Shown: positions 8,901-51,473 of the stretch, one piece after another
How the letters are laid out: every line of letters starts with the position of its first letter
Position numbering within the stretch: position 1 is the first letter of the stretch
NCBI RefSeq assembly: GCF_013388945.1
Contig: NZ_JACAEH010000004.1
Location: 124,001 to 188,000 of the forward strand
Direction: 5' to 3'
Length of the DNA stretch: 64,000 nucleotides
From: Nitrososphaera sp.
Lineage (GTDB): Archaea; Thermoproteota; Nitrososphaeria; Nitrososphaerales; Nitrososphaeraceae
Program-made: the position numbers and the translations under genes
The notes under the pieces: model-generated
The model's input: the letters and a program-made list of their open reading frames with translations, nothing else
Databases searched by the model: none
Told to the model about the DNA's origin: nothing

Positions 8901-10942
8901 CTGGCGCCGCTGTCGGTGCTCCTTGAGAAAAATACCTCGTATTCCGCGGCTACCCCGGACTGCCAGGTTACGTAAACATTGGTGCCCAGAGCGGCCATGT
9001 GCGGGATGATGGAAAAATCTGAGTCGTTGCTGACGTTCACTGCCGAGCTGAACGTTTCCCCGTTGTCTGTGCTCTTTTTGAAGAGTATTTCGTGGTTTGT
9101 TGCAGACGTATAATCTTCCCACACAACATAGACGACGCTGCCGACTGCCACGACAAAGGGAATCGTGGAATCCGTGCTGTCGTTGCTGAGGTTTACCGGC
9201 GCACTGAACGACGTGCCGCTGTCGGTGCTCCTTGCATACATGATGTCAAAATCTCCCGCAGTGTCATCGTACCAGACCGCGTGGACGTAGGTGCCCGAAG
9301 CGGCGATGCTGGGGAGGAAGGAATCGCCTGCGTTATTGCTCAGGTTCAGCTTGCCCGTCATATCGTTGACAGAAATGTTCACCGTGTCTTGGCTCGAGCC
9401 GCTTGCGCTGCTGACAGTGAGCTGAAAGGTCAGTGTTGTAGCGCTGCTCACCTGCGGCGCGGTAAAGGTCGGGCTTGCCGTGCTGGCTCCTGAGAGGCTC
9501 ACCGATGGCCCTGCAGTCTGGGTCCATGAATACGTCAGGCTTTCGCCGACCGGCGCCGTGCTTGCTGCGCCATTGAGCGCTACTGTTACGCCCTCTATTG
9601 TGTTCTGGTCTGGCCCCGCGTTTGCCGACACGTCGGGGTCCCTTGCAAACATCACCTCGGCAGGCGAAGCGGCAGAATTCCATGCAATGTAAACCGTGTC
9701 AGTCGATGCAGCAGCGTGTAGATTAAAAGAATTGGCAGCATCATTGGTCAGGTTTACGGTGTCATCAAACGTCATGTTGTTGCCGTCGTGTGTTCCCTTC
9801 ATGTAGAGTATGTCGCAGACAGCGCCGACGCACTCTTCCCAGAACAGGTATACGGTGCTCCCGTACGCGGCCACCCTTGCAGTGGCAGCAACGCCTGTGG
9901 TGATGTCCCAGTTGGAGCTCCACGACGTGACAAAGCCGTTATTGCTGAGCGCGACCCTAGCGTCGCCGTTTCCAGAAGAGTCGTCCACCCAGGCTACGAA
10001 AGCGTTGTCCCCGGAAAGAAATATCGTCAGTTCGCTTGAATCCCCGGAATCAGATGAGAGGTTTGTGGGAAGATCAAACGTCGCGCCGCTGTCGTCGCTG
10101 AACGCGTGAAAGGTGTCAACATTACCGGGGCCATTGTCGAGCCACACTATGTGAACGTTGGTGCCGGTGGCCGCAACTTCAGGTCCCTCGCTGGTTCCAT
10201 TGCTTTCATCGAGATTCATCGTGGTACCATAGCTGGACCCCCTATCCGTGCTCATTCTAAAAAAAGTGAATGCGTCGATGCCGTCGTAGGACCTCCACGC
10301 GACATAAACGTTGAATCCTACAGCCGCTATTGAAGGCAGAGTGGACTCATCTGAATCGTTGCTGACGTTGACAGGAGTTCCAAAGGTTGCACCACTTCCT
10401 GTGCCAACTATGACAAAGATATCATGGTTGCCGCCGGTAGGGTCATCCCAAGCGACGTACACGTAGGTCCCCTCCGCAGCTATGCGCGGGTTGTCTGCCA
10501 AGACGGAACTTCCGCTCAGTTTGACCGGAGTGTTAAAATTTGTGCCGTTGTCCGTGCTACGAGTAAACCAGACCTCGCCGCTCTCACCTAGGTCTGAAAG
10601 CCAGATGACATATACGTTTGATCCGACGACTGCAACTTGTGGTTTTATGGACAGATTCGCGTCGTTGCTCAGGTTTACTGGCGAACTAAAGGACGCACCG
10701 CTGTTGATGCTTCTGGCAAAGAATACGTCGTGGTTTGCGTCTGCTTCTTCCCATACGGCGTAGACGTTGCCGCCGGAAAAAGCTAGCTGGTTGCCTTTAG
10801 TGGACGACAGCAACGAGTCGGTTGTGTTGTTGCTGAGGTTCTTGGGCGTCCCGAATCCCGCATAAGCCGGCTGGATGTGAGAAGCCAAGGGGAGGGCTGC
10901 GAGAAGCAGCACCGCTGCTAGCCATATCGCCCACCCCTTCAT
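5948..10942 (-). CDS. Giant secreted surface protein with BNR-like, PKD-like and SpaA-like domains
   Basis: The 1664-residue protein has a signal peptide (residues 1-28, MKGWAIWLAAVLLLAALPLA). About eight 43-44-residue BNR/sialidase-like repeats follow (to ~430), each with a VYVxW core and a STDxGxxF Asp-box-like turn. Then come a PKD/Ig-like domain (~434-525), seven more repeats (~530-880), a second PKD-like domain (~900-990) and a SpaA/Cna-B-like domain (~994-1095). A beta region, a Ser/Gly linker (~1385) and two C-terminal modules (~1390-1540 and ~1545-1664) complete it. The same C-terminal pair ends the proteins at 18226-19833 and 55170-59222. It has many N-glycosylation sequons (NLS, NVS). 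It is likely an envelope adhesin or S-layer-associated protein; enzymatic sialidase activity is not implied. Confidence 0.85.
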   Translation of the reverse strand: MKGWAIWLAAVLLLAALPLASHIQPAYAGFGTPKNLSNNTTDSLLSSTKGNQLAFSGGNVYAVWEEADANHDVFFARSINSGASFSSPVNLSNDANLSIKPQVAVVGSNVYVIWLSDLGESGEVWFTRSTDNGTNFNTPVKLSGSSVLADNPRIAAEGTYVYVAWDDPTGGNHDIFVIVGTGSGATFGTPVNVSNDSDESTLPSIAAVGFNVYVAWRSYDGIDAFTFFRMSTDRGSSYGTTMNLDESNGTSEGPEVAATGTNVHIVWLDNGPGNVDTFHAFSDDSGATFDLPTNLSSDSGDSSELTIFLSGDNAFVAWVDDSSGNGDARVALSNNGFVTSWSSNWDITTGVAATARVAAYGSTVYLFWEECVGAVCDILYMKGTHDGNNMTFDDTVNLTNDAANSFNLHAAASTDTVYIAWNSAASPAEVMFARDPDVSANAGPDQNTIEGVTVALNGAASTAPVGESLTYSWTQTAGPSVSLSGASTASPTFTAPQVSSATTLTFQLTVSSASGSSQDTVNISVNDMTGKLNLSNNAGDSFLPSIAASGTYVHAVWYDDTAGDFDIMYARSTDSGTSFSAPVNLSNDSTDSTIPFVVAVGSVVYVVWEDYTSATNHEILFKKSTDNGETFSSAVNVSNDSDFSIIPHMAALGTNVYVTWQSGVAAEYEVFFSRSTDSGASFSASANLSGNLGTSELPIVSASGTNVIVAWTDNTPGNFDIMYARSTDSGTSFSAPVNLSSNSGSSDWPWVSFTGSNVYLAWQDDTSGNDEIMFSKSTDSGATFGSAVNLSSNSGSSLDPFVTSAGSSVAVTWDDASSPAEILFRHSANSGSTFDVKLNLSKNTGDSTVPEVAISGNTVYAVWEDLSAGGHEIFFTKFTIPGAVADQLGFSDSTTAMKNRQPVANAGADQTVDEGNLVTLNGAASSDPDNDALAFSWTQTGGPAVALSSASAASPTFTAPTITSTVTLTFRLVVNDGKANSAPDTVNVTVNDRKGTLTIKKVLQSTTNLLEGARFTITPNPFTLTSSLVVQDGMPEDSNTTNGVILLNNVEFGTFAIEETQVPAGFARVVEEITASVHATQQSPVVIFENIPTGQVVEQTLEIPAPDLTSVEFNNFVLRGAAVNNTPVQTVNDLPQGLLVPPAEVTTLPTISFAAEAPANSSIQDLKSAYTIPTYGSPEQNLVTNKVYIIPPIVIGQQGSDNKFVMTPVLEKTLPGMTVLFDSLTPTATGSGQLKNVEMTFTSAGSVDNAAFSVGVTDTVPSGTPAPPTSILETPAMFLTVDFAGDFSGTNFSSPSAFQGSPKVRVLVDRNLNVDKLSDGCPDVSLFFFDEGLNQWTTVTKPTRVPSLDTGQYCGYELEPGHWSKFAIGGVKITANVLQSIIPGAGGGSTPGSSSSSAAPVSSGSNVNTSVSVGGKTIGLSFASIQATGNVRVSVSTPSQMPGIFSSVSGSTGKVVVAGSQGSTPYATVGTVYEIDTSGVTFSGPIEIVIPYDPSLLPPFAQESELRLLHYTGAGWEDVTVSVDTNAKVIRAKLTSLSPVVAAVIDDGTYPDSYFEAYPLKKMSIVSDKPLASKTAEGKIALSTTVKNAQRLSQDYAVIIQVLDRAGITQYVHVSTGTLERGAEQEVSETIDLRRGNYTVLVMVWSGVDSPWPLSDAFQKALKV
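8722..8788. repeat. 67-bp exact direct repeat, copy 1 (inside the giant surface gene)
   Basis: It is identical base for base to 9184-9250, at an offset of 462 bp (154 codons, in frame). It encodes the repeat core FDIMYARSTDSGTSFSAPVNLS. Other repeats of this protein differ at the DNA level, so this pair is recent or kept alike by gene conversion. Confidence 0.9.
9184..9250. repeat. 67-bp exact direct repeat, copy 2 (inside the giant surface gene)
   Basis: This is the second copy of the 8722-8788 sequence. Recombination between the two would remove or add exactly 154 codons without a frameshift. Confidence 0.9.
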
Positions 10943-17099: not shown

Positions 17100-17486
17100 T
17101 TACTTTACGAACATTACTCCTTCGAGCTCCTTGAAATGCCGGTCTCCTGTAAGGAATGGGATTTGCATCTTTTTGGCAAGATAGTATCCAAGTGCATCAA
17201 CGTATGATATGTCCTTCCGCTTTTTCATCAGATCTTCTCTGAGTTTCATTGAGCCAGCAATGTCATCAATATCAAAGTCAACGAGATACCTGGAAAAGCG
17301 ATCGATAATCTGCCTTGCGGCCTCATGGCCATGGAGCTTACCGACCCTGAAGTAGATTTCCATCAAGTTTAGCTTCGTTAGTGCACCTGAAGATTTTTCC
17401 TCGAAGTATCTGGTGTAAGCCTTCTCACCGCTGATGTATGCAAGCACAGCGTAACTGTCATAGAAAAAAGTCCTGTCCCTACTCAC
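17100..17486 (-). CDS. vapC: VapC-type PIN-domain ribonuclease toxin
   Basis: The 128-residue PIN domain has its four acidic residues in place: FFYDSYAVLAYI, KLNLMEIYF, DISYVDALGYYLA and FLTGDRHF. These coordinate metal for RNA cleavage, typically of tRNA or rRNA, which arrests translation. Its start overlaps the 3' end of the AbrB-type antitoxin gene by 8 nt, which couples translation of the pair. The unit sits between imperfect direct repeats, suggesting arrival by insertion or local duplication. All motifs are intact. Confidence 0.88.
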   Translation of the reverse strand: MSRDRTFFYDSYAVLAYISGEKAYTRYFEEKSSGALTKLNLMEIYFRVGKLHGHEAARQIIDRFSRYLVDFDIDDIAGSMKLREDLMKKRKDISYVDALGYYLAKKMQIPFLTGDRHFKELEGVMFVK

Positions 17487-18225: not shown

Positions 18226-19833
18226 CTAGGCGACAACAGTCAGGGTCTTGTCGTTGACTATGGACAGCGCAGTGGGCGTCTGGCTGATTCCGTCCCAGAC
18301 GAATATCCTCACCGTGTAGTTGCCCTCGTCTCCTGCGACCCACGATCTTGCAGCATTGGTGGTCTCGCCGGATGCAAGCGTGCCGGTTACCCAGCCTACA
18401 TCAGCGGTGAAGCCGTCCTTGTCGATCACCTGTATGATGATGGCGTAGTTCTGTGAGCTCTGCTGGTAGTTCTTGAAGGTAGCCTGGATGTCTATCTGTC
18501 CTCCAGTCCTCGCAGCCGCTACTGCCTGGCCGCTTGAGCCGATAAATGCCGTGCTCTGCACCTGGACCTTTGCCAGCGGGTTGTTCACGAAGTAGGAGTC
18601 TGGGTACGTCGGTGTCAGATCTATACCTGTTCCACCGCCTGTAGTTCCACCGCCGCCTCCGCCACCTACTGCTCCGCCTCCGCTAGGAGCCACAGACGTG
18701 TAGCCTGCGACAACCGGCGAGAGCGAGGTCAGCCTGCCTGTAATAGTGTTGGCAGCGGTATCTACGGTTAGTGTAACATCTACCCATGCAGTCCCTGTCC
18801 AGTGGAAGAACTTGACGTTTGCTTCGTTAAAGCCCGGAGGAAGCAGTGTAGGATCGTAGGGTATTGTGACATCGATCGTTGCACCTGAGCCCAGTGTTAT
18901 GGATGAGGTGTCTATCTCAAACACAGTGCCAATGGTGTTACCTGTGGAGGTTCCAATAGTGAGACTGGACGACGTTCCCACAGCAGAGAATATGCCCGGA
19001 TTGTCTGCTAGGAGCGTAGATGGAGATACCTGCTCTACAACTATCGTACCGCCGGTCTGGACGTTGCTAATAGTAACAGTGATCGGTGTTGATACGCCGG
19101 GCACGGTTATCGGCGGAAGGGAGACGTTAGTTCCAGAGCTTACCGGGATCTGGATTATTGCGGGGCTCGAATTGACAGTAAATGTCAATTGAGGAGCAAC
19201 AAGCTCGTCTACTCCGTTTCCTCCTGCATTGGTCTGAATCAATACATCAAGGGTGTGAGTGCCTGGAGGTATCAAACCCGAGTTGAGTTTCCCACTTATT
19301 GTTATGGTCACGGGCCCATAGTATCCGTTTACAACGTTTGTACCTGCTCCAATATTTTGGTAACCTAGATTGTTACCGCCAACAAATCCGTACGACGAAC
19401 TAAACGTGAAAGAATAAGGAGCCGAATAGGTTGTTCCCGTCGAAATCAAGCCAAAGCCATATCCATACCCGGAAGCACCAGCCGACGGGCTTATGGTAAG
19501 CGTGTTATCTTTGACAAGAGAAGGGTCACCGCTTGTTCTCTGACCGTTTGCGTTAAAAATGGCATGCTTGACACCTGCAATAGTGTTATCCATTGTTAAT
19601 TCAATTGAACTGATAGAAATTAATTCTCCAGCAGCAACCTCAACAGATACTTGAAAGTCACTGCCGCTTGCAGACTGCGTTATTGTGTTGCCAGTTGTAT
19701 TAGGAAGGCTGGTGGTAACAGTAAACGCTTCTGCATTTTGCAAGGGCACGAATATCACAGCAAGAATTATTCCGGCGACGGCAATTCCGAGAATCTGCTT
19801 GTGTTTGCGAATATCATCTAGACCGGATGCCAT
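18226..19833 (-). CDS. Secreted surface protein sharing the C-terminal display cassette
   Basis: The 535 residues start with a short basic N-terminus and a signal/anchor helix (about 14-36, ILGIAVAGIILAVIFVPL, cleavable after AEA). A beta domain with a Gly/Tyr/Ser-rich patch (SGYGYGFG) follows. From ~225 come module A (DVTIPYDPTLLPP, VKFFHWTGTAWVDVTLTVD, TSLSPVVAG), a poly-Gly linker (~395-410) and module B (YPDSYFVNNPLAKV ... NYAIIIQVID ... GNYTVRIFVWDG). Both modules recur in the giant proteins at 5948 and 55170. It resembles an abundant envelope protein. TTTTATATT at 19864-19872 (minus strand) is a good TATA box about 35 nt before the start. It is the last GC-rich gene before the glycan island. 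Confidence 0.82.
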   Translation of the reverse strand: MASGLDDIRKHKQILGIAVAGIILAVIFVPLQNAEAFTVTTSLPNTTGNTITQSASGSDFQVSVEVAAGELISISSIELTMDNTIAGVKHAIFNANGQRTSGDPSLVKDNTLTISPSAGASGYGYGFGLISTGTTYSAPYSFTFSSSYGFVGGNNLGYQNIGAGTNVVNGYYGPVTITISGKLNSGLIPPGTHTLDVLIQTNAGGNGVDELVAPQLTFTVNSSPAIIQIPVSSGTNVSLPPITVPGVSTPITVTISNVQTGGTIVVEQVSPSTLLADNPGIFSAVGTSSSLTIGTSTGNTIGTVFEIDTSSITLGSGATIDVTIPYDPTLLPPGFNEANVKFFHWTGTAWVDVTLTVDTAANTITGRLTSLSPVVAGYTSVAPSGGGAVGGGGGGGTTGGGTGIDLTPTYPDSYFVNNPLAKVQVQSTAFIGSSGQAVAAARTGGQIDIQATFKNYQQSSQNYAIIIQVIDKDGFTADVGWVTGTLASGETTNAARSWVAGDEGNYTVRIFVWDGISQTPTALSIVNDKTLTVVA

Positions 19834-20734: not shown

Positions 20735-21793
20735 ATGATTCTTGACGACCTTGCAATGTATGATTCTTCCTTCATGAAAGTGTATGACAATTGGTACGAC
20801 TATTCGCTCTCAGCCAATGCACAATCTGAGAATATTACCGATGACTTGAAAATAAGAAAAAGAGCCTATTCATCGATAGTATTTGCAGGAATGGGCGGCT
20901 CTGCTACTGTAGGAGACATTGCCTGCTCGGTATTGAAGATGAGTTCGCGTGTAGTTAGAGGGTCGACGCTTCCAGAAAGCGTAGACAAGAACTCGCTTGT
21001 AATTGCATCGAGCGTATCCGGCAATACCTATGAAACAATCGAGATTGTCAGGGAATGTGTGAGAAAGAAGATCGATACAATTGTACTGTCCGCAGGTGGC
21101 GCGTTGGAGACGTTGGCAAAAAAAGAGGGTCTTTCACACATTAATATTCAGAATCTTGGAGCACCTAGGCTGTCGCTGCCTTGTTTAGTCTATCCGGTGA
21201 TGAATATTCTAAGAGTGTTTGAGTATGGCATGGAAGAACAAATCGCATCATCGCTGGAAACATTACGGTCATTATCACATTCAGCCAGAAGCTCGTCTCC
21301 GACGAGTGTGAATATTGCAAAAAAGATTGCCCTGTTCATAGGCTGCACGCTTCCCATCTGCTATTACAACTCTGACCTCAGGGCGGCTGGAATAAGATTC
21401 AGGAATTCGCTTAATGAAAATGCCAAGACCCACGCGATCAGTGAGGACGTTGAAGAGGCGTGTCACAACAGCATAGTTCCTTTCTCCGATAAACAATCTT
21501 CTGAATGTAGCGTGGTATTGCTCCGTTCTCAGAAGGAACGCAATTCGGTATCTTCGAGGTTTCGGATTGTAAAGAATTTCCTTGAGACCAAAGGGATTCC
21601 GGTACTGGAATTGAAAGGCGAGGGCAATACTCTGCTTGCCAGCATCATGGGTTTGGTTTACCTCTTGGACTATTCAACTGTCTACCTGTCGTTGCTAAAT
21701 GGGCACGACCCCAACGCCACGGCAGCCATCGATTACGTAAAGTCCGCCATCAAGGAACAACTTCAGACCGACTTTGGGGATAAGAGCGACTAG
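20735..21793 (+). CDS. Bifunctional phosphoglucose/phosphomannose isomerase
   Basis: The 352-residue SIS-domain protein has FAGMGGSATVGDIA (sugar-phosphate loop), ASSVSGNTYETIEIV, the catalytic region NSLNENAKTHAISEDVEEACHN and the C-terminal NGHDPNATAAIDYVKSAI. These are hallmarks of the archaeal/Aquifex PGI/PMI family that interconverts fructose-6-phosphate with glucose-6-phosphate and mannose-6-phosphate. It feeds both UDP-glucose and GDP-mannose branches of glycan synthesis. It overlaps the convergent amidohydrolase gene by 4 nt. Confidence 0.9.
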   Translation: MILDDLAMYDSSFMKVYDNWYDYSLSANAQSENITDDLKIRKRAYSSIVFAGMGGSATVGDIACSVLKMSSRVVRGSTLPESVDKNSLVIASSVSGNTYETIEIVRECVRKKIDTIVLSAGGALETLAKKEGLSHINIQNLGAPRLSLPCLVYPVMNILRVFEYGMEEQIASSLETLRSLSHSARSSSPTSVNIAKKIALFIGCTLPICYYNSDLRAAGIRFRNSLNENAKTHAISEDVEEACHNSIVPFSDKQSSECSVVLLRSQKERNSVSSRFRIVKNFLETKGIPVLELKGEGNTLLASIMGLVYLLDYSTVYLSLLNGHDPNATAAIDYVKSAIKEQLQTDFGDKSD

Positions 21794-22512
21794 ATCATTT
21801 TATCCAAGTTGTCGTGTATTATGTTTTGAATGTCTGTTTCGTTGGTCAGGCTTTCTTTCACGGTTGCCAAGTTTGCGCTCATGGTTCCCCACGGAATGTC
21901 GGACCCGAGCAGGACTCTTTTTGACCCAAGGTCGCGGACAGCCCACCTGATTACAGACGGTATGCGGCAATTGCTCGTCTCCAGCCACAGGTTGTCTATG
22001 CCCTTGGAGTTCTCTATGGCAGCCTTGGCATTTTGAAGCTCGTTTCCTCCCATGTGGGCCATGACTACCCTCAGCTTTGGGTACGACTTTGCTATCTCTA
22101 TTGCAAACTCATAGCTGGCCATTTCTAGCCACCTCCCGGTATGTATCAAAGCTATGGCTCCCTTGTCATGGAGAATGTCAAAGACGTCGGAAAAAACAGG
22201 ATCCGTGACTTTGACCTTGTCGATGCTTGGATGATACTTTATGCCCACTATCTTGTCATCCAAAAGCTTTGGTAGATTTTGCTTGCACCACGAAACATTA
22301 GAGGGCGTCATCCTCATTAATGCATAGATTTCTTTGTGGGTTCTGGAATACTTGATTAGATCGGCATTGACTTTGTCTATTTCCGCGTTGCTTGCAAACG
22401 CCATGAGCTTCCTCACGCTAAATTTTTCAATGTATCTTTCCAGATCACTTATAGCGATAACTTCTTCCACCAAGGTATCCGGCCCGAAATGGACGTGGGC
22501 GTCGCAGATCAT
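21790..22512 (-). CDS. Amidohydrolase-superfamily metal hydrolase (Amidohydro_2-like)
   Basis: The 240-residue TIM-barrel protein has CDAHVHFGP (metal HxH), IALIHTGRW, VVMAHMGGNE and VLLGSDIPWGT, all positioned as metal ligands of amidohydrolases. The substrate is unknown; family members cleave amides, esters or decarboxylate. Its ATG overlaps the stop of the AsnB-like gene (ATGA, 4 nt), and that gene follows an ATP-grasp gene by 10 nt. The three are almost certainly one operon. An amide-forming pair plus an amide/ester hydrolase suggests making and trimming a substituent on a sugar acid; this is an inference. Confidence 0.8.
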   Translation of the reverse strand: MICDAHVHFGPDTLVEEVIAISDLERYIEKFSVRKLMAFASNAEIDKVNADLIKYSRTHKEIYALMRMTPSNVSWCKQNLPKLLDDKIVGIKYHPSIDKVKVTDPVFSDVFDILHDKGAIALIHTGRWLEMASYEFAIEIAKSYPKLRVVMAHMGGNELQNAKAAIENSKGIDNLWLETSNCRIPSVIRWAVRDLGSKRVLLGSDIPWGTMSANLATVKESLTNETDIQNIIHDNLDKMI

Positions 22513-23693
22513 AACGTTTGGTTAAGGGACATTGATTTAGTTATAAAGATTCTGTGCCATACTTCTAGTGCAAGGATGCCCAGCAGCTTGTTGACGTACC
22601 TGTGGCTGGCCTGCCTCTCCTGGCTGCCGAGGGTCCTGTCGATCCATTCCATACTGATCAGTCCCGCTTCAACAACTTCTGATTGATCCATGATATTTTC
22701 GAAGATCTCCTTGCCCTCCTTTTGCCACAACTTGATCGTATCAAATGCAAATCCCTGCTTGCCCTGGGCTGACAATTCCTGCAGGCCATAGCTTGCTAGC
22801 AAGTGTCGCAGTATCAATTTTCCTTTAGAGCTATTCCGGTCATACTTTAGAGATACAGGAATCCGTAGTGCAAAGCTTATCATCTCCTTGCTCAAGAAAG
22901 GCCTGAAGAGTTTGAGATTGAAAGCGTCGGCCCACCTTTGAAACATTGGGTGCCAGTCGTGGAGTAGCTTGCCGTTAAAGTCTGCGAGGAAGACCTGATC
23001 AAGAGGTTCCAGAGGGTTGTCAAAGTAGGGCACAAGGAGCGAGTATACAGAGTCCCAATCAAAGTTAATCGATTTACCAAAGAGATCTTTCTGGTCTGGA
23101 ACCCAATCACGACCGTGGCCATCCAGATAGCTTTTCACTCTGTCAATAGGACTGGCAAGATTCCCGTTGAGAAACTGTTGATATCTAAACGTATATCCGC
23201 CGAAGAGCTCGTCGCCCCCGTCGCCTGTGCAGAGGATGTCGCAGTACTTTGACGCATACTTTAGCAGGTAGTACGACCACATGTTCCACATTGGTTTTTG
23301 TACAAGCCAGATGTGGCGCGGCATCTCTTTGAATATCCTGTCAAGTACTATGTCATGATGGTCAGTCTCATAGTTGGCTATCATGCGTTCTAGCATCGGA
23401 TCTTTCTTGCCGTCCACAAGAACGCTGAATGTCACCAGGTTTTCCACCGACTTGGAAGCAGAATGCAAGAGAACTGAAGAGTCTATGCCGCCTGAAACTG
23501 TGAGCCCAAGCTTGTTCATCCCTGCAAAGGAACCCGACAGCATTTCATGGACTGTTCTGGAAGCGCCGTCAATCGTTACATTGTTTTTTGGGATAAAGTC
23601 TTGCCAGGTTTTTGCGTCATTGCTGAGTGGAACCGGGCTGTATCTGAGCGTAAGGATGTTTGTTATTTCCTTCTTGTCGGCGTCGGTGAGCAA
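22509..23693 (-). CDS. Asparagine synthetase-like amide ligase without glutaminase domain
   Basis: The 394 residues hold the AsnB C-terminal synthetase domain: PP-loop LTVSGGIDSSVLLHSAS, LVTFSVLVDGK, CTGDGGDELFGGYTFRYQ, and helical C-terminal parts (LFRPFLSKEMI, GKLILRHLL). The usual N-terminal class II glutaminase domain with Cys2 is absent; only ~60 residues precede the PP-loop. It should adenylate a carboxylate and transfer ammonia or another amine. AsnB homologues amidate uronic acids in some bacterial O-antigens (WbpS type), which fits this glycan locus. It is the middle gene of the ATP-grasp/AsnB/amidohydrolase operon. The start is TTG. Confidence 0.85.
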   Translation of the reverse strand: MLTDADKKEITNILTLRYSPVPLSNDAKTWQDFIPKNNVTIDGASRTVHEMLSGSFAGMNKLGLTVSGGIDSSVLLHSASKSVENLVTFSVLVDGKKDPMLERMIANYETDHHDIVLDRIFKEMPRHIWLVQKPMWNMWSYYLLKYASKYCDILCTGDGGDELFGGYTFRYQQFLNGNLASPIDRVKSYLDGHGRDWVPDQKDLFGKSINFDWDSVYSLLVPYFDNPLEPLDQVFLADFNGKLLHDWHPMFQRWADAFNLKLFRPFLSKEMISFALRIPVSLKYDRNSSKGKLILRHLLASYGLQELSAQGKQGFAFDTIKLWQKEGKEIFENIMDQSEVVEAGLISMEWIDRTLGSQERQASHRYVNKLLGILALEVWHRIFITKSMSLNQTL

Positions 23694-23703
23694 CTAGTGG
23701 GAC

Positions 23704-24768
23704 TTAGAGTACCTTTTCTTTAAGGTTATGCCAATCCGTTATCCACGCACCGCAGTCGATATGCCTCACCAGGTATATCTCTGGATAGATATCGTACTTG
23801 GGCATGTCCGGCACCTGCTTTTCCAGCCCAATAGAAAGGTAAAGGTTTGGCAGCGCGTAAATTGCGGGCAACTTTAGGTGTTTGATTGCGGCGTAACCCC
23901 AGAGACCAATGGTGGTATGGAATTTTCCCGAATCCACCTCCGTTATCATTGGCTTCCCGTCCTTTTCTTTCATGTCAACGGAATAGCAGCCATGGGGCGA
24001 GGGGTCTATTGCGCGTACCGCCTTTTCTGCGGCAAGGTTGACTTTATCCTCATGTATTACTCTGGCTACGGTGGGAGTGCCGGTTATGCCGGAAAGCGTA
24101 AGCTGGCTGAACGGGTATTCCAAGCGTTCTCTTGCATACGAGGTGACAAGCTTGCCTTCGTGCCACAGGCTGTCCCAAGCCATGTCACGCCCTTCCAGAA
24201 ATTCTTGGATGATAAAATCGCCCCATTTGGCACGGCCTTGGGAGACGCACAGCTTGATCCAGAGGAGCACGTCGTCGGCGCTGTGGCATTTGTTGCTCAG
24301 CCTCCCGCCGGCGCCTCGTCTTGCCCTCACCCAGACTGGGAAAGCGATTTTGCCTTCAATGTCATGTAAATCTGCTTCTGAACTAATCTCTATGGTTTTT
24401 GCGACATCGATGCCGTTTCTTTCCAGCACCCGCTGCTGGGCCAGCTTGTCTCGCAAAACAACCTCGGGGGCGGGAAGGTAGGTTTCGACGTCCAGCGCAT
24501 CCCTGTTCTTGGCTATTACCTGCAATTCAGGGGTTGGCTGCGGATGCAAAAAGTCAATATCGTTTCTTTCAATCACCTTTCGGAGCTCGTCAAGGTAGTT
24601 GTGATCAGAATGATTCGGGATTACTTCCATCTTATTTACGTTGGGAAAAAGAGTGTGGAACTTGTTTCTCTCGGTTCCGACAACGAAATACTTGTCTGAG
24701 AGCGTTATGGAACGGATAAAATTTACGCCCGCCGTTCCACCGGCGCCCGTGACTAAAATATTGTACAA
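23704..24768 (-). CDS. ATP-grasp ligase (CarB-like)
   Basis: The 354 residues begin with a Rossmann-like preATP-grasp domain (YNILVTGAGGTAGVNFIRSI). The ATP-grasp fold follows: FPVWVRARRGAGGRLS, FIIQEFLEGRDMAWDSLW, and the metal site MITEVDSGKFHTT. Such enzymes form amide or peptide bonds through an acyl-phosphate, usually joining a carboxylate to an amine or amino acid. It heads the operon with the AsnB-like and amidohydrolase genes. Its TTG start lies 28 nt after a TATA element (24794-24799, minus strand). The substrate is not deducible; a uronic-acid glycan precursor is the contextual guess. Confidence 0.82.
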   Translation of the reverse strand: MYNILVTGAGGTAGVNFIRSITLSDKYFVVGTERNKFHTLFPNVNKMEVIPNHSDHNYLDELRKVIERNDIDFLHPQPTPELQVIAKNRDALDVETYLPAPEVVLRDKLAQQRVLERNGIDVAKTIEISSEADLHDIEGKIAFPVWVRARRGAGGRLSNKCHSADDVLLWIKLCVSQGRAKWGDFIIQEFLEGRDMAWDSLWHEGKLVTSYARERLEYPFSQLTLSGITGTPTVARVIHEDKVNLAAEKAVRAIDPSPHGCYSVDMKEKDGKPMITEVDSGKFHTTIGLWGYAAIKHLKLPAIYALPNLYLSIGLEKQVPDMPKYDIYPEIYLVRHIDCGAWITDWHNLKEKVL

Positions 24769-24872
24769 TCAACTTTGGTTGAAGTTGCGATGTATATTTG
24801 CCTTTTTAGTCTATTTGCCTCTTGACAAGGATCTGCTTTATATTAACAAGATGATATCCAAATTGGAAGTGC

Positions 24873-24904
24873 GTTGATGCAAGTCTGCGAGTCGGCGCAT
24901 CAAC
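24873..24904 (+). other. Hairpin in the leader of the first FkbM gene
   Basis: GTTGATGC (24873-24880) and GCATCAAC (24897-24904) are perfect 8-bp arms around a 16-nt loop, between a TATA-like CTTTATATTAAC near 24835-24846 and the GTG at 24918. It would form in the mRNA just before the start codon and could affect translation. Confidence 0.4.
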
Positions 24905-24917
24905 AAGGTGAGAAATA

Positions 24918-28201: not shown

Positions 28202-29557
28202 TCAATGTGAAGAAAGGGTTGCTTTGGTCTTGCCAATGGCAAGATACTTGATGTCAGCCGTCTCCTTTACTTGCAGGAATCGTTTCGTATCGATCACTGC
28301 GCATTTTGACGTGAATTTTCTTATCATTTTTTCGGTTATAACTCGATAATCGTCCCAGTCTGTCATCAGTACTACACAATCCGTGTTCTTCAGAGCGTTT
28401 GCCAATGAAGCTGGATATTCGATTTTGTTGCCGAATACTGTTCTCGTGTTGTCCATGGCCATCGGATCATGTATGCGCACAATGGCTCCAAGCTCCAATA
28501 ATTTGTCAATCACTCTTATCGATACGCTTTCTCTTATGTCGTCTGTGTTTTTCTTGAAAGATGTGCCCAGAACCGTAATCGATTTGCCGCTGATCGGTCC
28601 CAATCCATGTTTGACCAGATCTATCACGGCCTGTGCTTGAAGTTTGTTTACTCTGTCCGTAGCTTCCAGAAGTGTTGGATCAAGCCCCAGTGTCTTGCAG
28701 AACTGTATGAATCCTGAAACGTCTTTTGGAAAGCAAGAGCCGCCGTAGCCAGGTCCTGCAGAAAGGAACTGGGAACCTATCCTTGGGTCGGTCCCTATAG
28801 CGCCTGCGATGATATCTACGTCTGCGCCGGGAATCTTGTTGCACACATTTGCTATCGTGTTTATGAAGCTGATCTTTGTTGCCAAGAAGGAGTTGTTTGA
28901 GTATTTGATCAGTTCAGCTGTAACAATGTTTGTTTTCAATATCTTCGTTCGCGGGCCGTATAGATTTCTAAAGAAGCTGTGAACTCGTGAGTCTACTTTC
29001 TTGTCCCCGGTTCCAATTACTATGATGTGTGGATTCAGCGAGTCTTCGACGGCACTTCCTTCCCTAAGAAATTCAGGCGTCATTGCTATTCCAAAGTCGG
29101 TCGAACGCTGTTTGTTGCTCCCAGCTTCGATGTTCTTGGTTACCACGTTCCCGGTCGTTCCCGGAGGTACTGTGCTCTTTACGCAGAATACGTGATATTT
29201 TCTCGAGTCCTTGATGACTTGTCCGATCTGCAGGCTGACTCTTGCAACGTAGTCAAGGTTGACCGAGCCATCAGAATTCATCGGGGTGCCGACGCATATG
29301 AATGTCAGGTCAGAATTGTCGATTGCCTCGGCAATAGAGCTTGTTGGAACTAGTCGCTTTTGGGCAACTGCTCTTTTCACCAGGGCATCTAACTTTGGTT
29401 CAAAGAACGGCGCCCTCCCTTTCCTGATAATGTCTATCTTGTTCTCGTCGCTATCGACGCCGTACACGAGAGCGCCCTTCTTTGCAAAGACGGCCGCGGT
29501 TGTGAGGCCCACGAATCCCATTCCTATGATCGATACTTTGTGCGTCAATCCACTCAT
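28202..29557 (-). CDS. UDP-glucose 6-dehydrogenase
   Basis: From the ATG at 29557 the product is 451 residues. It has the NAD-binding VSIIGMGFVGLTTAAVFA, FICVGTPMNSDGSVNLDYV, STVPPGTTG, MTPEFLREGSAVEDSLNP, the catalytic-cysteine motif GPGYGGSCFPKDV, and GTSFKKNTDDIRESVS. These identify a UDP-glucose/GDP-mannose dehydrogenase, and FLREG with GSCFPKD favours UDP-glucose. It oxidises UDP-glucose twice to UDP-glucuronate. The upstream neighbour is a UDP-xylose synthase-like SDR and GalU is at 49283, completing a UDP-Glc to UDP-GlcA to UDP-Xyl route. The longer ATG (29581) would overlap the upstream stop by 19 nt; the shorter one starts 5 nt after it. Confidence 0.9.
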   Translation of the reverse strand: MSGLTHKVSIIGMGFVGLTTAAVFAKKGALVYGVDSDENKIDIIRKGRAPFFEPKLDALVKRAVAQKRLVPTSSIAEAIDNSDLTFICVGTPMNSDGSVNLDYVARVSLQIGQVIKDSRKYHVFCVKSTVPPGTTGNVVTKNIEAGSNKQRSTDFGIAMTPEFLREGSAVEDSLNPHIIVIGTGDKKVDSRVHSFFRNLYGPRTKILKTNIVTAELIKYSNNSFLATKISFINTIANVCNKIPGADVDIIAGAIGTDPRIGSQFLSAGPGYGGSCFPKDVSGFIQFCKTLGLDPTLLEATDRVNKLQAQAVIDLVKHGLGPISGKSITVLGTSFKKNTDDIRESVSIRVIDKLLELGAIVRIHDPMAMDNTRTVFGNKIEYPASLANALKNTDCVVLMTDWDDYRVITEKMIRKFTSKCAVIDTKRFLQVKETADIKYLAIGKTKATLSSH

Positions 29558-29562
29558 CTTTC

Positions 29563-30576
29563 CTATGAAGACGTGTTCCAATCTAGAGTCATTTGAATGC
29601 CCGTCTTGAGATCAATCTTGGGCGTCCAAGATAAAAGTTCATTTGCCTTTCTGATATCCGGGCAGCGTCTTTTCGGGTCGTCTGGTGCTGGAGGGGCGAA
29701 TACTACGTCGGACTTGCTGTTAGTCACCTCTTTGATGGCTTGTGCCAACTGCAGAATGGTCATTTCCTCTGGATTCCCGATGTTAATTACTTCGTTAACA
29801 AGAGTCGATTGCGCAAAATACAAGATTCCTCTTACAGTATCGCTTACAAAGCAAAATGATCGCGTCTGCTTGCCATCTCCAAAAATCGTGATATCCTTGT
29901 TGGATGACGCCTGCATCAGAAATCTTGAAACAGCCCTGCCATAGTATCCGTCAGCCCTCAATCTTGGTCCGTAGGTGTTGAAGATCCTGAATATTTTCAC
30001 GGGCACATTGTATTGTCTTGAATACGCCATGAAAAGCGCCTCTGCATACCTCTTGCCTTCATCGTAACACGACCTCAATCCGACCGGATTGACATTGCCC
30101 CAATATGATTCAGGAGTTGGTATTACCCGGGCATCACCGTATACTTCCGATGTGGAGGCAAACGCTATTGGTATGCCTCTTTCCTTGCAATAACTCAAGA
30201 GTTTCTGCGAACCTGTAGAGTTGGGGAGCAAAGATTCTACAGGATGTAGCTGATAGTCTTCTGGCGATGGTCTGCTTGCCAGATGAAAGACAAAATCACA
30301 GTTTATTGCTGATAGATCCGCGGTGACTATGTTTTCATGAATGAGATGAAAGTTTGGATGCTGGCGCAGATGATCCACGTTTGTTGCAGGGCTTGTGGAG
30401 AAATCGTCAACACAGTACACCGTGCCTCCAATCTTGCATATGGCCTCGGAGATCCAGCTTCCGAGAAAGCCGGCGCCGCCGGAAATCAGGAACGACTTTG
30501 ACCTGAAGAAATTAGTTTTGATTCCATCGTCCAATATGAGCGATAATGTCTTGTCTATCAGGTCTGCCCGGCGCAT
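29563..30576 (-). CDS. UDP-glucuronate decarboxylase-like extended SDR (UDP-xylose synthase)
   Basis: The 337 residues have the SDR nucleotide loop ISGGAGFLGSWISEAI and AFASTSEVYGDA. The diagnostic stretch is GNVNPVGLRSCYDEGKRYAE (YxxxK with the RSCYDEGKR motif), followed by GKQTRSFCFVSDTVRGI. RSCYDEGKR is typical of UDP-glucuronate decarboxylases, which make UDP-xylose through a 4-keto intermediate. The gene is immediately upstream of the UDP-glucose dehydrogenase gene, so the two steps are encoded together. A UDP-apiose synthase or epimerase is a less likely reading. Confidence 0.85.
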   Translation of the reverse strand: MRRADLIDKTLSLILDDGIKTNFFRSKSFLISGGAGFLGSWISEAICKIGGTVYCVDDFSTSPATNVDHLRQHPNFHLIHENIVTADLSAINCDFVFHLASRPSPEDYQLHPVESLLPNSTGSQKLLSYCKERGIPIAFASTSEVYGDARVIPTPESYWGNVNPVGLRSCYDEGKRYAEALFMAYSRQYNVPVKIFRIFNTYGPRLRADGYYGRAVSRFLMQASSNKDITIFGDGKQTRSFCFVSDTVRGILYFAQSTLVNEVINIGNPEEMTILQLAQAIKEVTNSKSDVVFAPPAPDDPKRRCPDIRKANELLSWTPKIDLKTGIQMTLDWNTSS

Positions 30577-31478: not shown

Positions 31479-32036
31479 TCAGATTATTTCTTGAAGTTCC
31501 CCGAGAGACATGAAAGGTATGCCACCTTCTCTTCGTACAAGGTATGCCTTGCATTGCAAAGTTGAGGCACTGTGATAGTCATGCGCTTTATCTCCTATCA
31601 CTAGGGTATCTTGTCCTAGAACGTTGAACTTCTTTAGGCAACGTGATATCTGTTCCAATCTGGGTACGACATCGTCACGTGTAACCACATAGTCGAATTT
31701 GTTGGATATTTCCAGTCGCTTCATGATTTCTGATGTGGGTTTTTTTCCCTGAAGAGTTACAAGACAAATAATGTAGTCTTTTTTCCTTGCTTTTTCAAGC
31801 ACGTTTCTGGCGTGGTCTTTTATTTTCAATGTATCGAGGGAGTTCAGTTCAAAATCATCCAGCATGGCGAATGCGGCCTTTCTGTCGTTTTCACCCAGCT
31901 TGCTGATGCTCTCCATTATGCGAGTAAAATCAGAGTTGAAATTGGCGCCCAATTCTTTCCGTAGCCGATCATAATCTATCTCAAACGAAACCAGCGTCCC
32001 ATGCAGATCAAAGATCATCATTCTGCGCCGTATCAT
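31479..32036 (-). CDS. HAD-superfamily hydrolase-like protein with DxH instead of DxD
   Basis: The 185 residues follow the HAD order. Motif I is MIFDLHGTLVSF, motif II CLVTLQGKKP (Thr), then a Lys-containing helix near motif III, and motif IV LVIGDKAHDYHSA (GDxxxD). Motif I keeps the nucleophile Asp, but the second Asp (general acid/base in phosphatases) is His. This position also varies in dehalogenases, phosphonatases and P-type ATPases, so activity may differ from plain phosphatase. In a glycan locus a sugar-phosphate phosphatase is the first guess. The start may be any of the Met codons within the first seven residues. Confidence 0.78.
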   Translation of the reverse strand: MIRRRMMIFDLHGTLVSFEIDYDRLRKELGANFNSDFTRIMESISKLGENDRKAAFAMLDDFELNSLDTLKIKDHARNVLEKARKKDYIICLVTLQGKKPTSEIMKRLEISNKFDYVVTRDDVVPRLEQISRCLKKFNVLGQDTLVIGDKAHDYHSASTLQCKAYLVRREGGIPFMSLGELQEII

Positions 32037-39254: not shown

Positions 39255-40752
39255 GAACATACTTGCCTTTCATTACGGCCTTGATTCCTGTGATGCTTCC
39301 TTTCAGTCCTCTGCGGCGGATCTGGAGCATCATGTTCTTGGGGTTCTTCATAGTCGTTTTGACCATGTGCTTGAACCAAGTGTCAACCGCGTACTGACGC
39401 AGCTCCTCGATTTCTTTAGATGAAAGGTTGGGATAGTTCAGCACCGCAGTTCTTTCGCCATCATACTGGGTCCAGTCGTACGTCCTTAACCATCCCTTGG
39501 CTTTTGCTTCCTCAAAGAACGGAGTTCCCGGGAATGGAGTTGCGATGGAGAATTGAGCGTTATCAACACCCAGATGCAACGCATAATCTACCATGTTATA
39601 GACCCCTTCCCTTGTATCGCTGGGCAGTCCAACTACAAAGCTGGCATGAGTCTTTATTCCCAGATTCTTGCATTTCTGTACGAAGGTGGTCACTTTGTCG
39701 GTGGTCACTGTGCCTTTATGAACAGCCTTGAGGGCCTGGGGCGTCACAGAGTCGACGCCAAACTTGATTCCGCAAAAGCCGGCATCGGCCATCATTTTCA
39801 GCGCATCTTCTGCAATAGTAATGTCGCCCATGCACGACCACGGCAGGTCCACTTTTCTATCTATGATTTCCTGGCAGACGGCCTGCACGTGCTTCTTGTT
39901 GATAACCATGGTATCGTCATCAAAGTATACCTGCCTTGCGCCGTACTTGTCCTTTACAAGGATCATTTCGTCCACGATTTCCTTTGGAGACCTGCGCCTG
40001 TACATTGAAGACGCAAACATGGTCTGGATTGGAACGCAGAATGTGCATCCAACGGGGCAGCCTCGCGAAGAGAGCATCTGAATGCAAGGAGTGTCCGCAA
40101 AGACCGCGTCTTCGTACCGCTGGGCAGGAAGATCTTCCCTGTCCGGGAAAGGCAATTGATCAAGCGGGTCTATCAGCATGCGCCGCTGGTTTACCTTCAC
40201 AGAATCGCCATGCCTGAAAGCCAAGCCGTGTATCTCTTCAAAACCTGATGGAAACTTGGAGTAGCTATTTACCAGCTCTCTCAGCGTCAGCTCATATTCT
40301 CCGACTAGGCCAAAGTCGATGAATTTGTATTCATTCATTGTATCCTCCGGAATACCGGTAATATGCGGACCGGATACCGCCAACTTGAAGCCAACCTCCT
40401 TTTTCAGTTCTCCTAGAATTGGCAGCATAAGGGGGAATGCCACGGTTGGCACTTCAACAAGAAGTATGTCTGGAGAATAGGATTTCACGTAGGAACGAAA
40501 GTCATTTACATCTAGGTCAAGGACACAAGGATCCCAGGCTTTTACAGTCCAGTCCGTGTCTCTTTTCAACAAGGCAGTAGAATACCCTATGTTGAAAGGG
40601 TATTCCATGTATTTCCACTCTGCAGCTCCCGGATCGCCTTTCCTTATCTTGTAGGTGGCGCTCCAGCGCTGGCTACCAGCCCCATTGTAATGGCGCTCAG
40701 GATCTTTTATATAGGCTGGAATATTGCTGAGCAGAATCTTCATGGAGTCCAT
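39244..40752 (-). CDS. Radical SAM protein with N-terminal B12-binding-like domain (1)
   Basis: The 502 residues begin with a Rossmann-like B12-binding region (DILLVEVPTVAFP, KLAVSGPHITGIPED, FGLVGEYELTLREL). The radical SAM barrel follows, with the standard cluster motif SSRGCPVGCTFCVP (C-x3-C-x2-C), then YFDDDTMVINK and FGVDSVTPQALKAV. Enzymes of this class methylate unactivated carbons or rearrange rings using S-adenosylmethionine and cobalamin. In this locus a C-methylated or otherwise modified sugar or lipid carrier is plausible. No DxHxxG B12 lower-ligand motif is visible, so base-off binding without His is likely. Confidence 0.85.
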   Translation of the reverse strand: MDSMKILLSNIPAYIKDPERHYNGAGSQRWSATYKIRKGDPGAAEWKYMEYPFNIGYSTALLKRDTDWTVKAWDPCVLDLDVNDFRSYVKSYSPDILLVEVPTVAFPLMLPILGELKKEVGFKLAVSGPHITGIPEDTMNEYKFIDFGLVGEYELTLRELVNSYSKFPSGFEEIHGLAFRHGDSVKVNQRRMLIDPLDQLPFPDREDLPAQRYEDAVFADTPCIQMLSSRGCPVGCTFCVPIQTMFASSMYRRRSPKEIVDEMILVKDKYGARQVYFDDDTMVINKKHVQAVCQEIIDRKVDLPWSCMGDITIAEDALKMMADAGFCGIKFGVDSVTPQALKAVHKGTVTTDKVTTFVQKCKNLGIKTHASFVVGLPSDTREGVYNMVDYALHLGVDNAQFSIATPFPGTPFFEEAKAKGWLRTYDWTQYDGERTAVLNYPNLSSKEIEELRQYAVDTWFKHMVKTTMKNPKNMMLQIRRRGLKGSITGIKAVMKGKYVLNG

Positions 40753-42068: not shown

Positions 42069-43388
42069 GTGTCAGCAGTCGTAATAGGTCTAGGGTTTGT
42101 TGGTTTGACGCTAGCCCTTGCTCTCGCAGACAAAGGTGTGATGGTATTTGGAGTTGAGAGCAACAACGGCTCGTACAGGACCATCTCTGCTGGGAAGCCA
42201 ACGATTAACGAGAAGGGCATAGAGCTTTTTCTGCGCAGAAACCTTGGACGTACGTTCATGGTATTCGAGAAGCTGGAAGATGTGCCTGGCTCTGAGGTTG
42301 ACACGTACGTGATCTGTGTGGGAACTCCACTTCAATCAGGATCGCCATATATTGGATATCTGAAGTCGGCGACAGAATCCGTTGGCAAGCACATGAAAGG
42401 GAACGAGATGGTGATCGTGAGATCTACGGTTCCTATAGGGACCACGCGCAAAATAGTCCTGCCAATACTTCGAGGCGAATTGAAGAAAAGAGGCATAGAG
42501 ACGCAGGTGAACATCGCATTTGCTCCCGAACGAACGGCTGAAGGAGTGGCATTGCAGGAATTGTACGAGCTGCCCCAGATAGTGGGAGGAATAAACGAGG
42601 AGAGCGTCTCGAGGTCCATGAACCTGTTCCGGAGGCTGACCCCTACAGTCATAATGGTGTCATCTGTAGAGACCGCCGAAATGATCAAGTTGATAGACAA
42701 TTCGTACAGGGACGTGCGGTTTGCATATGCGAATGAGATTGCATTGATGTGCGAGAAACTGGGGATCGACGCCAATGAATGCATATCAAAATCAAATGTG
42801 CATTATCCTAGAAACAGCATACCGTTCCCAAGCCCCGGAGTAGGCGGTCCCTGTCTTTCAAAAGACCCGTACATACTTGCACAGGAGGAGCTAGTTGATT
42901 ACCTTCCTAACAAGCGTTCGCTGATCATCGCAGGACGGCGATTAAACGAAGCAATCCCGGAACTCTTGGCAGAAAAAATCAAGAGTAAAATTCGTTCAAA
43001 GAACAAATCTGCAAAAGATCTAAAGGTGTTCGTTATGGGTTTTGCTTTCAAGGGGCATCCCGAAACCAATGACACCAGGGACTCGCCAACTATTCCACTC
43101 GTAAACATCTTGAAAAAAGATTTCAATATCTACGGCCATGATCCAGCAGTTCCAAAAGATATCATAGAAGCTGCAGGCGCGACGCCCACCGACATCGAAT
43201 CAGGGTTCAAGAACGCGGCATGCGTTATAATCATGAATAATCACATGTCCTACAGAAACCTGGACGTGACATCGCTCGTTGAGAAGGCTGCAAGACCATT
43301 TATTTTTGTGGATTGCTGGAGGCTTTACGACAAAAAGATATTCGAGACTATGGATGGCGTGACATACACGGGTGTAGGCATTGTCTAA
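42069..43388 (+). CDS. UDP-ManNAc dehydrogenase-like nucleotide-sugar dehydrogenase
   Basis: The 439 residues begin VVIGLGFVGLTLALALADKG, then ICVGTPLQSGSPYIGYL, STVPIGTTRKIV, FAPERTAEGVALQELYELPQIVGG, GVGGPCLSKDPY (the catalytic Cys) and FAFKGHPETNDTRDSPT. The ERTAEGxAL and GGPCLSKDPY forms are those of the WecC/Cap5O type, which make UDP-N-acetylmannosaminuronate, not UDP-glucuronate. The 2-epimerase (WecB) that would make UDP-ManNAc was not found in the window. The start is GTG. It overlaps the next epimerase gene by 8 nt. Confidence 0.87.
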   Translation: MSAVVIGLGFVGLTLALALADKGVMVFGVESNNGSYRTISAGKPTINEKGIELFLRRNLGRTFMVFEKLEDVPGSEVDTYVICVGTPLQSGSPYIGYLKSATESVGKHMKGNEMVIVRSTVPIGTTRKIVLPILRGELKKRGIETQVNIAFAPERTAEGVALQELYELPQIVGGINEESVSRSMNLFRRLTPTVIMVSSVETAEMIKLIDNSYRDVRFAYANEIALMCEKLGIDANECISKSNVHYPRNSIPFPSPGVGGPCLSKDPYILAQEELVDYLPNKRSLIIAGRRLNEAIPELLAEKIKSKIRSKNKSAKDLKVFVMGFAFKGHPETNDTRDSPTIPLVNILKKDFNIYGHDPAVPKDIIEAAGATPTDIESGFKNAACVIIMNNHMSYRNLDVTSLVEKAARPFIFVDCWRLYDKKIFETMDGVTYTGVGIV

Positions 43389-48222: not shown

Positions 48223-48243
48223 AGTGTTTGAAATTCGTCCATG

Positions 48244-48290
48244 CAATATATAAGAATATGCAACATTCACACGTGGGAAGACGTTTATAA
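48244..48290. promoter_or_regulatory. Divergent promoters for radical SAM (2) and GT2
   Basis: On the minus strand TTATATA (48246-48252) is 27 nt from the TTG at 48222. On the plus strand TTTATAA (48284-48290) is 27 nt from the TTG at 48315. Both suggest leaderless mRNAs and fix both start codons. Confidence 0.6.
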
Positions 48291-50534: not shown

Positions 50535-51473
50535 GTGTCAAAGGTTGCAGTGATCGGGGTTGGTGGGTGGGGCAAGAACCACGCGAGAGTTCTCAACGAG
50601 CTTCAAGCTTTAAGCGTGATTTGCGATAAAGATGCGGTACTGGCAAAAGAGGCTGCCAAGAAATATGGAGTTAATTCCTATTCCAACATAGAAGAGATGC
50701 TGGAGAAAGAAAGCGAACTTGATGCATGCATGGTATGTACGCCCATCAAAACACATTATGAGATTACGAAAATGCTGATAGACAAGGGAATGCATGTGTT
50801 TGTAGAAAAACCGCTATCATTTTCTTCAGAAGAATGCGAAAAAATGATGAAGCAGGCATTGGAAAAGAACGTTGTCCTTACAGCGGGATACATTGAGAGA
50901 TTTAACCCGGCAGTTCAATATGCCAAGCGTCTCATAGATGAAAAGAAATACGGCGATCTATTTATGATGGAATTTCACAGGGAAAATAGAATGCCTGCTC
51001 AAAGCCTCGATGTAGGCATCATCTATGACATTACGGTGCACGACATTGATGCTGCAATGTTTCTTTTTGGTTCAAGACCGGAGGTTGTTTTCGCGCGAGC
51101 CGGAAAAAAGCTTCACCCGTACGAAGATTTCGCCACCATTATGCTGGGATTTAGTAACCAGAGGGTGGCGGTCATCGCTTCAAATTGGCTCACGCCAAAT
51201 AAAATCAGGACTTTTAGTGCTGTTTGCACGGATGGCATCATAACAGGGAATTACATTTTGCAGGAGGTGAAGATAGATCATGGCGAAGCTACAATTTTTC
51301 CGCGCATAGAACTAAAAGAGCCGTTAATGCTAGAATTATCCCATTTCCTTGATGTAATTGCAGGAAGAAGGAAAGAGCCTTTGGTTTCAGCCGCGGATGC
51401 AACGTATGTCACGAGGATTGCCGAGGCTGCCATTCTATCTAACCAGACAGGAAAGCCTATTTCCTTGAAGTAA
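50535..51473 (+). CDS. Gfo/Idh/MocA-family nucleotide-sugar dehydrogenase
   Basis: The 312 residues have VAVIGVGGWGKNHARVLNEL (NAD loop), CTPIKTHYEITKMLI, VFVEKPLSF (EKP motif), GYIERFNPAVQYAK, and YDITVHDIDAAMFLFG (active-site His). The GYIERFNPAV form is typical of archaeal and bacterial UDP-N-acetyl-hexosamine 3-dehydrogenases. It would oxidise a nucleotide sugar at C3, giving a keto intermediate for later amination or epimerisation. No classical DegT transaminase partner is in the window (the DegT here has His for Lys). GTG start; CTTATATTTT at 50504-50513 is the TATA. Confidence 0.85.
   Translation: MSKVAVIGVGGWGKNHARVLNELQALSVICDKDAVLAKEAAKKYGVNSYSNIEEMLEKESELDACMVCTPIKTHYEITKMLIDKGMHVFVEKPLSFSSEECEKMMKQALEKNVVLTAGYIERFNPAVQYAKRLIDEKKYGDLFMMEFHRENRMPAQSLDVGIIYDITVHDIDAAMFLFGSRPEVVFARAGKKLHPYEDFATIMLGFSNQRVAVIASNWLTPNKIRTFSAVCTDGIITGNYILQEVKIDHGEATIFPRIELKEPLMLELSHFLDVIAGRRKEPLVSAADATYVTRIAEAAILSNQTGKPISLK

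Follow-up and report, generated by a model that had tools for sequence, protein, structure and literature searches.

What might an ATP-grasp ligase, a protein resembling asparagine synthetase B (AsnB) and an amidohydrolase make together when their genes lie end to end within a glycan locus? Such an arrangement occurs in a 64,000-nucleotide stretch of DNA from Nitrososphaera sp., here called the window. The host genome carries archaeal amoA and so, by gene content, belongs to an ammonia oxidiser; judging by named relatives, the host is one of the Nitrososphaerales. To our knowledge, little work has characterised the glycans on the surface of ammonia-oxidising archaea. The evidence set out below suggests that the trio probably decorates an acidic sugar of the cell surface with amide and amino-acid groups. 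By analogy, the chemistry would resemble that of a known bacterial pathway; the enzyme set is new and is seen in one genome only.

The trio proved real: the three open reading frames, the 10-nt gap and the ATGA overlap were all confirmed (Table 1). The final 4 nt of the trio run into the 3′ end of a convergent phosphoglucose/phosphomannose isomerase gene (20735-21793). Each of the three proteins can be aligned from end to end with homologues from other genomes and keeps its catalytic residues. The GC content of the trio (0.47-0.51) is no different from that of the neighbouring genes, and recent transfer, as judged by base composition, was rejected on this ground.

Table 1. Features of the trio and of the surrounding locus (window coordinates).
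Feature	Position	Strand	Remarks
Amidohydro_2 TIM-barrel metalloenzyme, trio gene 3	21790..22512	-	ATG start
ATGA start/stop overlap, AsnB-like and amidohydrolase genes	22509..22512	-	
Asn_synthase (PP-loop) protein, 394 aa, trio gene 2	22509..23693	-	TTG start, TGA stop
10-nt gap, ATP-grasp stop to AsnB-like start	23694..23703	-	
ATP-grasp carboxylate-amine ligase (PRK12767 type), trio gene 1	23704..24768	-	TTG start, TAA stop
Intergenic stretch separating the trio from a divergent FkbM methyltransferase gene (+ strand)	24769..24917	.	Likely trio promoter (putative, from position)
Nucleotide-sugar dehydrogenase, UDP-glucose dehydrogenase-like (TuaD/AglM)	28202..29581	-	
HAD phosphatase, family accompanying the ATP-grasp gene elsewhere	31479..32036	-	7 kb from the trio, same locus
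Nucleotide-sugar dehydrogenase, UDP-ManNAc dehydrogenase-like	42069..43388	+	NF040825, 236 bits (below equivalog cut-off of 750)
UDP-GlcNAc 3-dehydrogenase-like oxidoreductase	50535..51473	+	NF040723, 264 bits (below cut-off of 450)

The first protein scores below all Pfam cut-offs (ATP-grasp_3 at 19.2 bits), but NCBIfam models of the PRK12767 type ("carbamoyl phosphate synthase-like") match it, with scores of up to 82.8 bits. Its structure model (pLDDT 94.7) has the ATP-grasp fold. Together with the residues conserved in homologues (K108, the RRGAGGR loop, E189, D265, and the E277 and D279 region), the fold places it in the ATP-grasp superfamily. The nearest fold is 2pn1, followed by the L-amino acid ligases RizA and BL00235, with BacD and GAR synthetase within the first ten. 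2pn1, RizA, BL00235 and BacD share both the fold and the conserved ATP-grasp residues with the trio enzyme, although identity to 2pn1 and the L-amino acid ligases in the structure match is just 14-18%.

Pfam recognises only an Asn_synthase domain (residues 61-381, 125.9 bits) in the second protein, which agrees with its prediction as an AsnB-like enzyme lacking the glutaminase. Both the SGGxDS and the GDGGDELFGGY motif are retained, as is the position of the catalytic lysine; where E. coli AsnB has the Asp of its VPFLD motif, this protein has Ser. The protein thus differs from asparagine synthetase B in having neither this conserved Asp nor a glutaminase domain. Every GATase_7 domain of the genome lies within a protein of 491-608 aa, and a search of the genome for a stand-alone glutaminase partner (PF13537) found none. 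With no glutaminase domain in the protein and no stand-alone one in the genome, we infer that free ammonia is the likely nitrogen donor. The view that two different amide-forming enzyme types are coupled here is upheld.

The third protein matches Amidohydro_2 (PF04909) at 46.9 bits, against a cut-off of 26.4. Residues H6, H8, K92, H124, H153 and D205 are conserved or nearly so in 12 homologues, and the structure model (pLDDT 92.3) is a TIM barrel with the metal-ligand residues present. The solved structures nearest in fold are mainly decarboxylases and lactonases, few of them acting on amides. The "trimming" that the original prediction thought possible is doubtful, as the protein falls in the decarboxylase/lactonase branch.

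The surroundings of the trio form a large glycan locus with glycosyltransferases, sugar epimerases and two nucleotide-sugar dehydrogenases. Both dehydrogenases exceed the TIGR03026 cut-off (425.8 bits for the UDP-glucose dehydrogenase-like protein, 319 bits for the UDP-ManNAc dehydrogenase-like one). The original prediction that the locus makes uronic acids is supported. The UDP-GlcNAc 3-dehydrogenase-like oxidoreductase gives a hint of a 3-amino sugar. A complete 2,3-diamino-uronate pathway is not visible within the window. Despite the UDP-ManNAc dehydrogenase-like and UDP-GlcNAc 3-dehydrogenase-like genes, such a sugar is only a possible product here, because the window has no ordinary aminotransferase. 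The DegT-family protein at 45202-46473 is RfbH-like, with His-His at the expected position of the PLP lysine, as read from its sequence. This replacement means that it is not an ordinary aminotransferase, and its assignment as a WbpE-like aminotransferase was rejected; its likeness to RfbH suggests a 3-deoxy sugar. A normal DegT gene lies more than 200 kb beyond the window.

The N-acetylglutaminylglutamine amide (NAGGN) osmolyte trio also consists of an ATP-grasp enzyme, an AsnB and a hydrolase. The present genes could accordingly be read as a small-molecule pathway of this kind parked in a glycan locus, a reading that we regard as very improbable. The recipe of three enzyme types is the same, and the NAGGN amidotransferase model (TIGR03104) is the best NCBIfam match of the AsnB-like protein, but at 80.1 bits that match is far below the cut-off of 570.1. 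The protein has no glutaminase domain and the trio no acetyltransferase part. In the loci that were read, moreover, homologues of the AsnB-like and ATP-grasp genes sit mostly among glycosyltransferase, epimerase and dehydrogenase genes. Identity with the NAGGN trio was rejected on score and context.

Rare co-occurrence of the three genes in relatives was named with the original prediction as an outcome that would refute it. In a sample of 151 genomes from the order, matches were obtained in 16 with the amidohydrolase query (E≤1e-10), in 35 with the AsnB-like query (E≤1e-20) and in 30 with the ATP-grasp query (E≤1e-15). All three genes occur together in one genome, the window's own, and in the 69 other genomes of the family the ATP-grasp gene yielded a single, very weak and partial match. 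Co-occurrence of the three is thus rare and conservation of the whole trio was not borne out, but pairs of its parts do recur elsewhere. Being unique to one of 151 genomes, the trio is a local assembly and no conserved module. The trees agree with such an origin. The trio's AsnB-like copy is sister, with 100/100 support, to that of genome G061, which belongs to another family and lacks amoA, and a second AsnB-like copy of the same genome (contig 17) clusters with one from the same genus. The trio's ATP-grasp protein stands by itself on a long branch, amid homologues that are linked to the deacetylase. When plasmids were searched with the amidohydrolase and the AsnB-like protein, distant matches only were returned. 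The parts of the trio come from two conserved archaeal glycan modules; no description of either module was found in the literature searched.

One module is built around the AsnB-like gene. amoA is present in 34 of the 35 order genomes with this gene vs 41 of the 116 without it (Fisher p 8e-12, shared ancestry being ignored). In seven fetched loci from Nitrosopumilaceae-like genomes (a label read from features such as amoA and relatives), the AsnB-like gene lies directly 3′ of a nucleotide-sugar dehydrogenase gene. The two overlap in six, with offsets of -26 to +8 nt. Three of these dehydrogenases were scored, and UDP-ManNAc dehydrogenase models fit them better than UDP-glucose dehydrogenase models. 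Adjacency to a UDP-ManNAcA-type dehydrogenase in these relatives, members of a sister family, ties the AsnB-like enzyme to a uronic acid, and this pairing is the strongest evidence that its substrate may be one. In other genomes, the AsnB-like gene adjoins a GT2 glycosyltransferase gene.

The other module belongs to the ATP-grasp gene, with which amoA coincides in just one of 30 order genomes; the marine Nitrosopelagicus also carries it. Searching genome contigs with a single protein found no relative, while an alignment query did. Across 77 loci from GTDB genomes, a HAD phosphatase gene lies no more than two genes away in 55 and a deacetylase gene is present at at least 35, a six-frame search having added more. 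This partnership with a HAD phosphatase, often joined by a VimE-like deacetylase, is spread across TACK archaea. The deacetylase scores best against VimE, at 23-56 bits far under the model cut-off of 440, and weakly against Polysacc_deac_1 and WbmS-like models. The apparent absence of the deacetylase from loci L083, L145 and L151 (both genes in the case of L081) was dismissed as an ORF-calling artefact, the six-frame search having found otherwise. In Bathyarchaeota the neighbours of the ATP-grasp gene are HAD and DUF354 genes. A deep module of ATP-grasp and HAD genes, frequently accompanied by DUF354, was seen at loci L173-L217 in Bathyarchaeota, other TACK archaea and Asgard archaea.

The Nitrosopelagicus loci (L153-L155 and L161) combine the ATP-grasp/HAD pair with a divergent deacetylase. 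Their flanks, a radical SAM gene and the glycosyltransferase c17, are those of the dehydrogenase/AsnB-like pair in other Nitrosopumilaceae-like genomes, and the two pairs appear to be alternative cassettes of one glycan locus. A 3.2-kb contig (L150) assigned to a Phycisphaerae bacterium also carries an ATP-grasp/HAD/deacetylase set; it may be an archaeal contig placed in the wrong bin.

After the six-frame search, the deacetylase adjoins the ATP-grasp gene in 25 of 29 order loci. Two of the other four, the window and L096 in genome G008, carry an amidohydrolase (p about 0.02, a post hoc figure from two loci). The genes of L096 are DUF354, ATP-grasp, HAD, amidohydrolase and UDP-GlcNAc 2-epimerase, of which the middle three overlap; this operon has no deacetylase. 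An alignment of the ATP-grasp-linked deacetylases, used as a genome-wide query, found no match in the trio genome and one weak, distant match in G008. The window and L096 amidohydrolases share a GRW[LV]EM motif that is missing from other homologues. This pattern suggests that the amidohydrolase may replace the deacetylase. Genome G135 has an amidohydrolase gene in a glycan locus (L097), with the AsnB-like gene about 18-19 kb off. Most amidohydrolase matches elsewhere show 23-28% identity and lie beside unrelated genes, such as those for amino acid permeases.

Could the three genes be accidental neighbours in a fast-shuffling glycan locus? The AsnB-like enzyme would then amidate a uronic acid, the others acting on other sugars or on free sugar acids, the amidohydrolase for instance as a lactonase or decarboxylase. 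The combination is unique, the AsnB-like and ATP-grasp genes have histories of their own and distributions that nearly exclude each other, and the amidohydrolase is nearest in fold to lactonases and decarboxylases. All this speaks for the explanation, which we nonetheless hold to be somewhat unlikely. Tight coupling, through the 10-nt gap and the ATGA overlap, argues against it, and so does the ATP-grasp/HAD/amidohydrolase operon of G008, where two of the parts again occur side by side in one operon.

We tentatively favour, at a little less than even confidence, a glycan-modification cassette assembled by gene exchange and combining uronamide formation with amino-acid ligation, the amidohydrolase supplying or editing substrate. 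Families, catalytic residues, gene coupling and the partner genes in relatives are the observations from which this scheme starts; all substrates and the order of the steps are what we infer from them. The AsnB-like enzyme would adenylate the C6 carboxylate of a nucleotide- or lipid-linked uronic acid, of ManNAcA or GlcNAc(3N)A type, and turn it into the uronamide, likely with free ammonia. The ATP-grasp enzyme would activate an amino acid or another small acid as its acyl phosphate and couple the acid to an amine on that sugar. Substrate would be supplied or edited by the amidohydrolase. Most likely it would strip an acyl group from the nitrogen of the sugar, standing in for the VimE-like deacetylase found with the ATP-grasp gene in most relatives. 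This step is the weak one, decarboxylases and lactonases making up most of the enzyme's relatives in fold. The same module would include the HAD phosphatase encoded 7 kb away, which scores 130.7 bits when compared with a profile made from the ATP-grasp-linked HADs with this protein left out. Against the scheme stand the restriction of the trio to one genome, a deacetylase swap seen post hoc at two loci, the incomplete 2,3-diamino-uronate pathway in the window and the many Bathyarchaeal ATP-grasp loci with neither deacetylase nor amidohydrolase.

The original prediction did not recognise the modification system. The enzyme set is indeed new, but the logic resembles that of the published Wbp/Vim pathway, which makes the linking sugar of type IX secretion in Porphyromonas gingivalis, 2-N-seryl, 3-N-acetylglucuronamide (PMC7468200). 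There, VimE removes an acetyl group, VimA transfers the amino acid and WbpS, an AsnB relative, amidates the carboxyl (PMC7468200). The trio offers possible analogues of these three steps, mostly by non-homologous enzymes. Common to both would be uronamide formation by an AsnB-family protein, deacetylation followed by addition of an amino acid to the freed amine, and UDP-sugar dehydrogenases. VimE, a UDP-2,3-diacetamido-glucuronate deacetylase, is a distant relative of the deacetylase found beside the ATP-grasp gene in relatives. In contrast, VimA is a putative N-acetyltransferase where we propose an ATP-grasp enzyme, and an amidohydrolase stands at the place expected of a deacetylase, the genome-wide search having met no VimE-type one. 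Like the trio protein, WbpS/WbqG (TIGR03108, eps_aminotran_1) has an Asn_synthase domain and belongs to a uronic-acid polysaccharide locus. The trio protein nevertheless fails TIGR03108 (54.8 bits vs a cut-off of 816.9) and lacks the N-terminal glutaminase, with 394 aa vs the 628 positions of the model. The bacterial pathway further uses WbpA, WbpB, WbpE and WbpD (UDP-GlcNAc dehydrogenase, 3-dehydrogenase, aminotransferase and acetyltransferase); WbpA- and WbpB-like genes lie in the window, a DegT gene far outside it. As judged by the exosortase family (PF09721), of which this genome has no gene, a sortase-linked sugar was rejected.

A carboxyl-linked amino acid is the main chemical alternative. 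The ATP-grasp or the AsnB-like enzyme would then join the amino acid to the carboxyl of the uronic acid, not to a sugar amine, and the amidohydrolase would remove misplaced groups. An archaeal C6 amino-acid amide has a precedent in the Methanococcus N-glycan, with its threonine amide ManNAcA6Thr, for which no enzyme had been identified as of a 2010 review (PMC2952790). That glycan is likewise an archaeal surface sugar with an amide-linked amino acid, its linkage being at the carboxyl, unlike the amine linkage proposed for the trio. The amino-acid ligases nearest in fold to the ATP-grasp enzyme and the uronate dehydrogenases of the locus also favour this alternative. We consider it unlikely, as the deacetylase beside the ATP-grasp gene in relatives suggests a freed amine rather than a carboxyl, and a carboxyl amide is already accounted for by the AsnB-like enzyme. 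A literature search on the AglU threonine step and on ATP-grasp enzymes in uronic-acid amides gave nothing useful.

Two testable modules emerge: an ATP-grasp/HAD pair, often with a VimE-like deacetylase, across TACK archaea, and a UDP-sugar dehydrogenase with a glutaminase-free AsnB-like enzyme, nearly restricted to amoA carriers. If the cassette reading is right, these cells should carry uronamides and N-aminoacyl sugars, and ammonia would be used directly in glycan synthesis by organisms that live on it. In a bolder version, which we rate as decidedly unlikely, archaea would build a uronamide sugar with an N-aminoacyl group, a residue of the type by which bacteria anchor type IX secreted proteins, using the ATP-grasp ligase, the amidohydrolase and an ammonia-using AsnB-like enzyme peculiar to ammonia-oxidising archaea. 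If so, archaeal surface glycans could bear amine handles for the attachment of protein or lipid.

Some further genes of the region were noted. Two B12-binding radical SAM proteins (39244-40752 and 46717-48270) lie inside the glycan locus; both are HpnJ-like, at 236 and 144 bits, below the cut-off of 577.6. Near the locus, a small PIN-domain-like protein (17100-17486) is, from its sequence, a possible toxin of a toxin-antitoxin pair. Large repetitive secreted proteins are encoded on either side of the glycan locus (5948-10942 and 55170-59222) and cluster with the product of 18226-19833.
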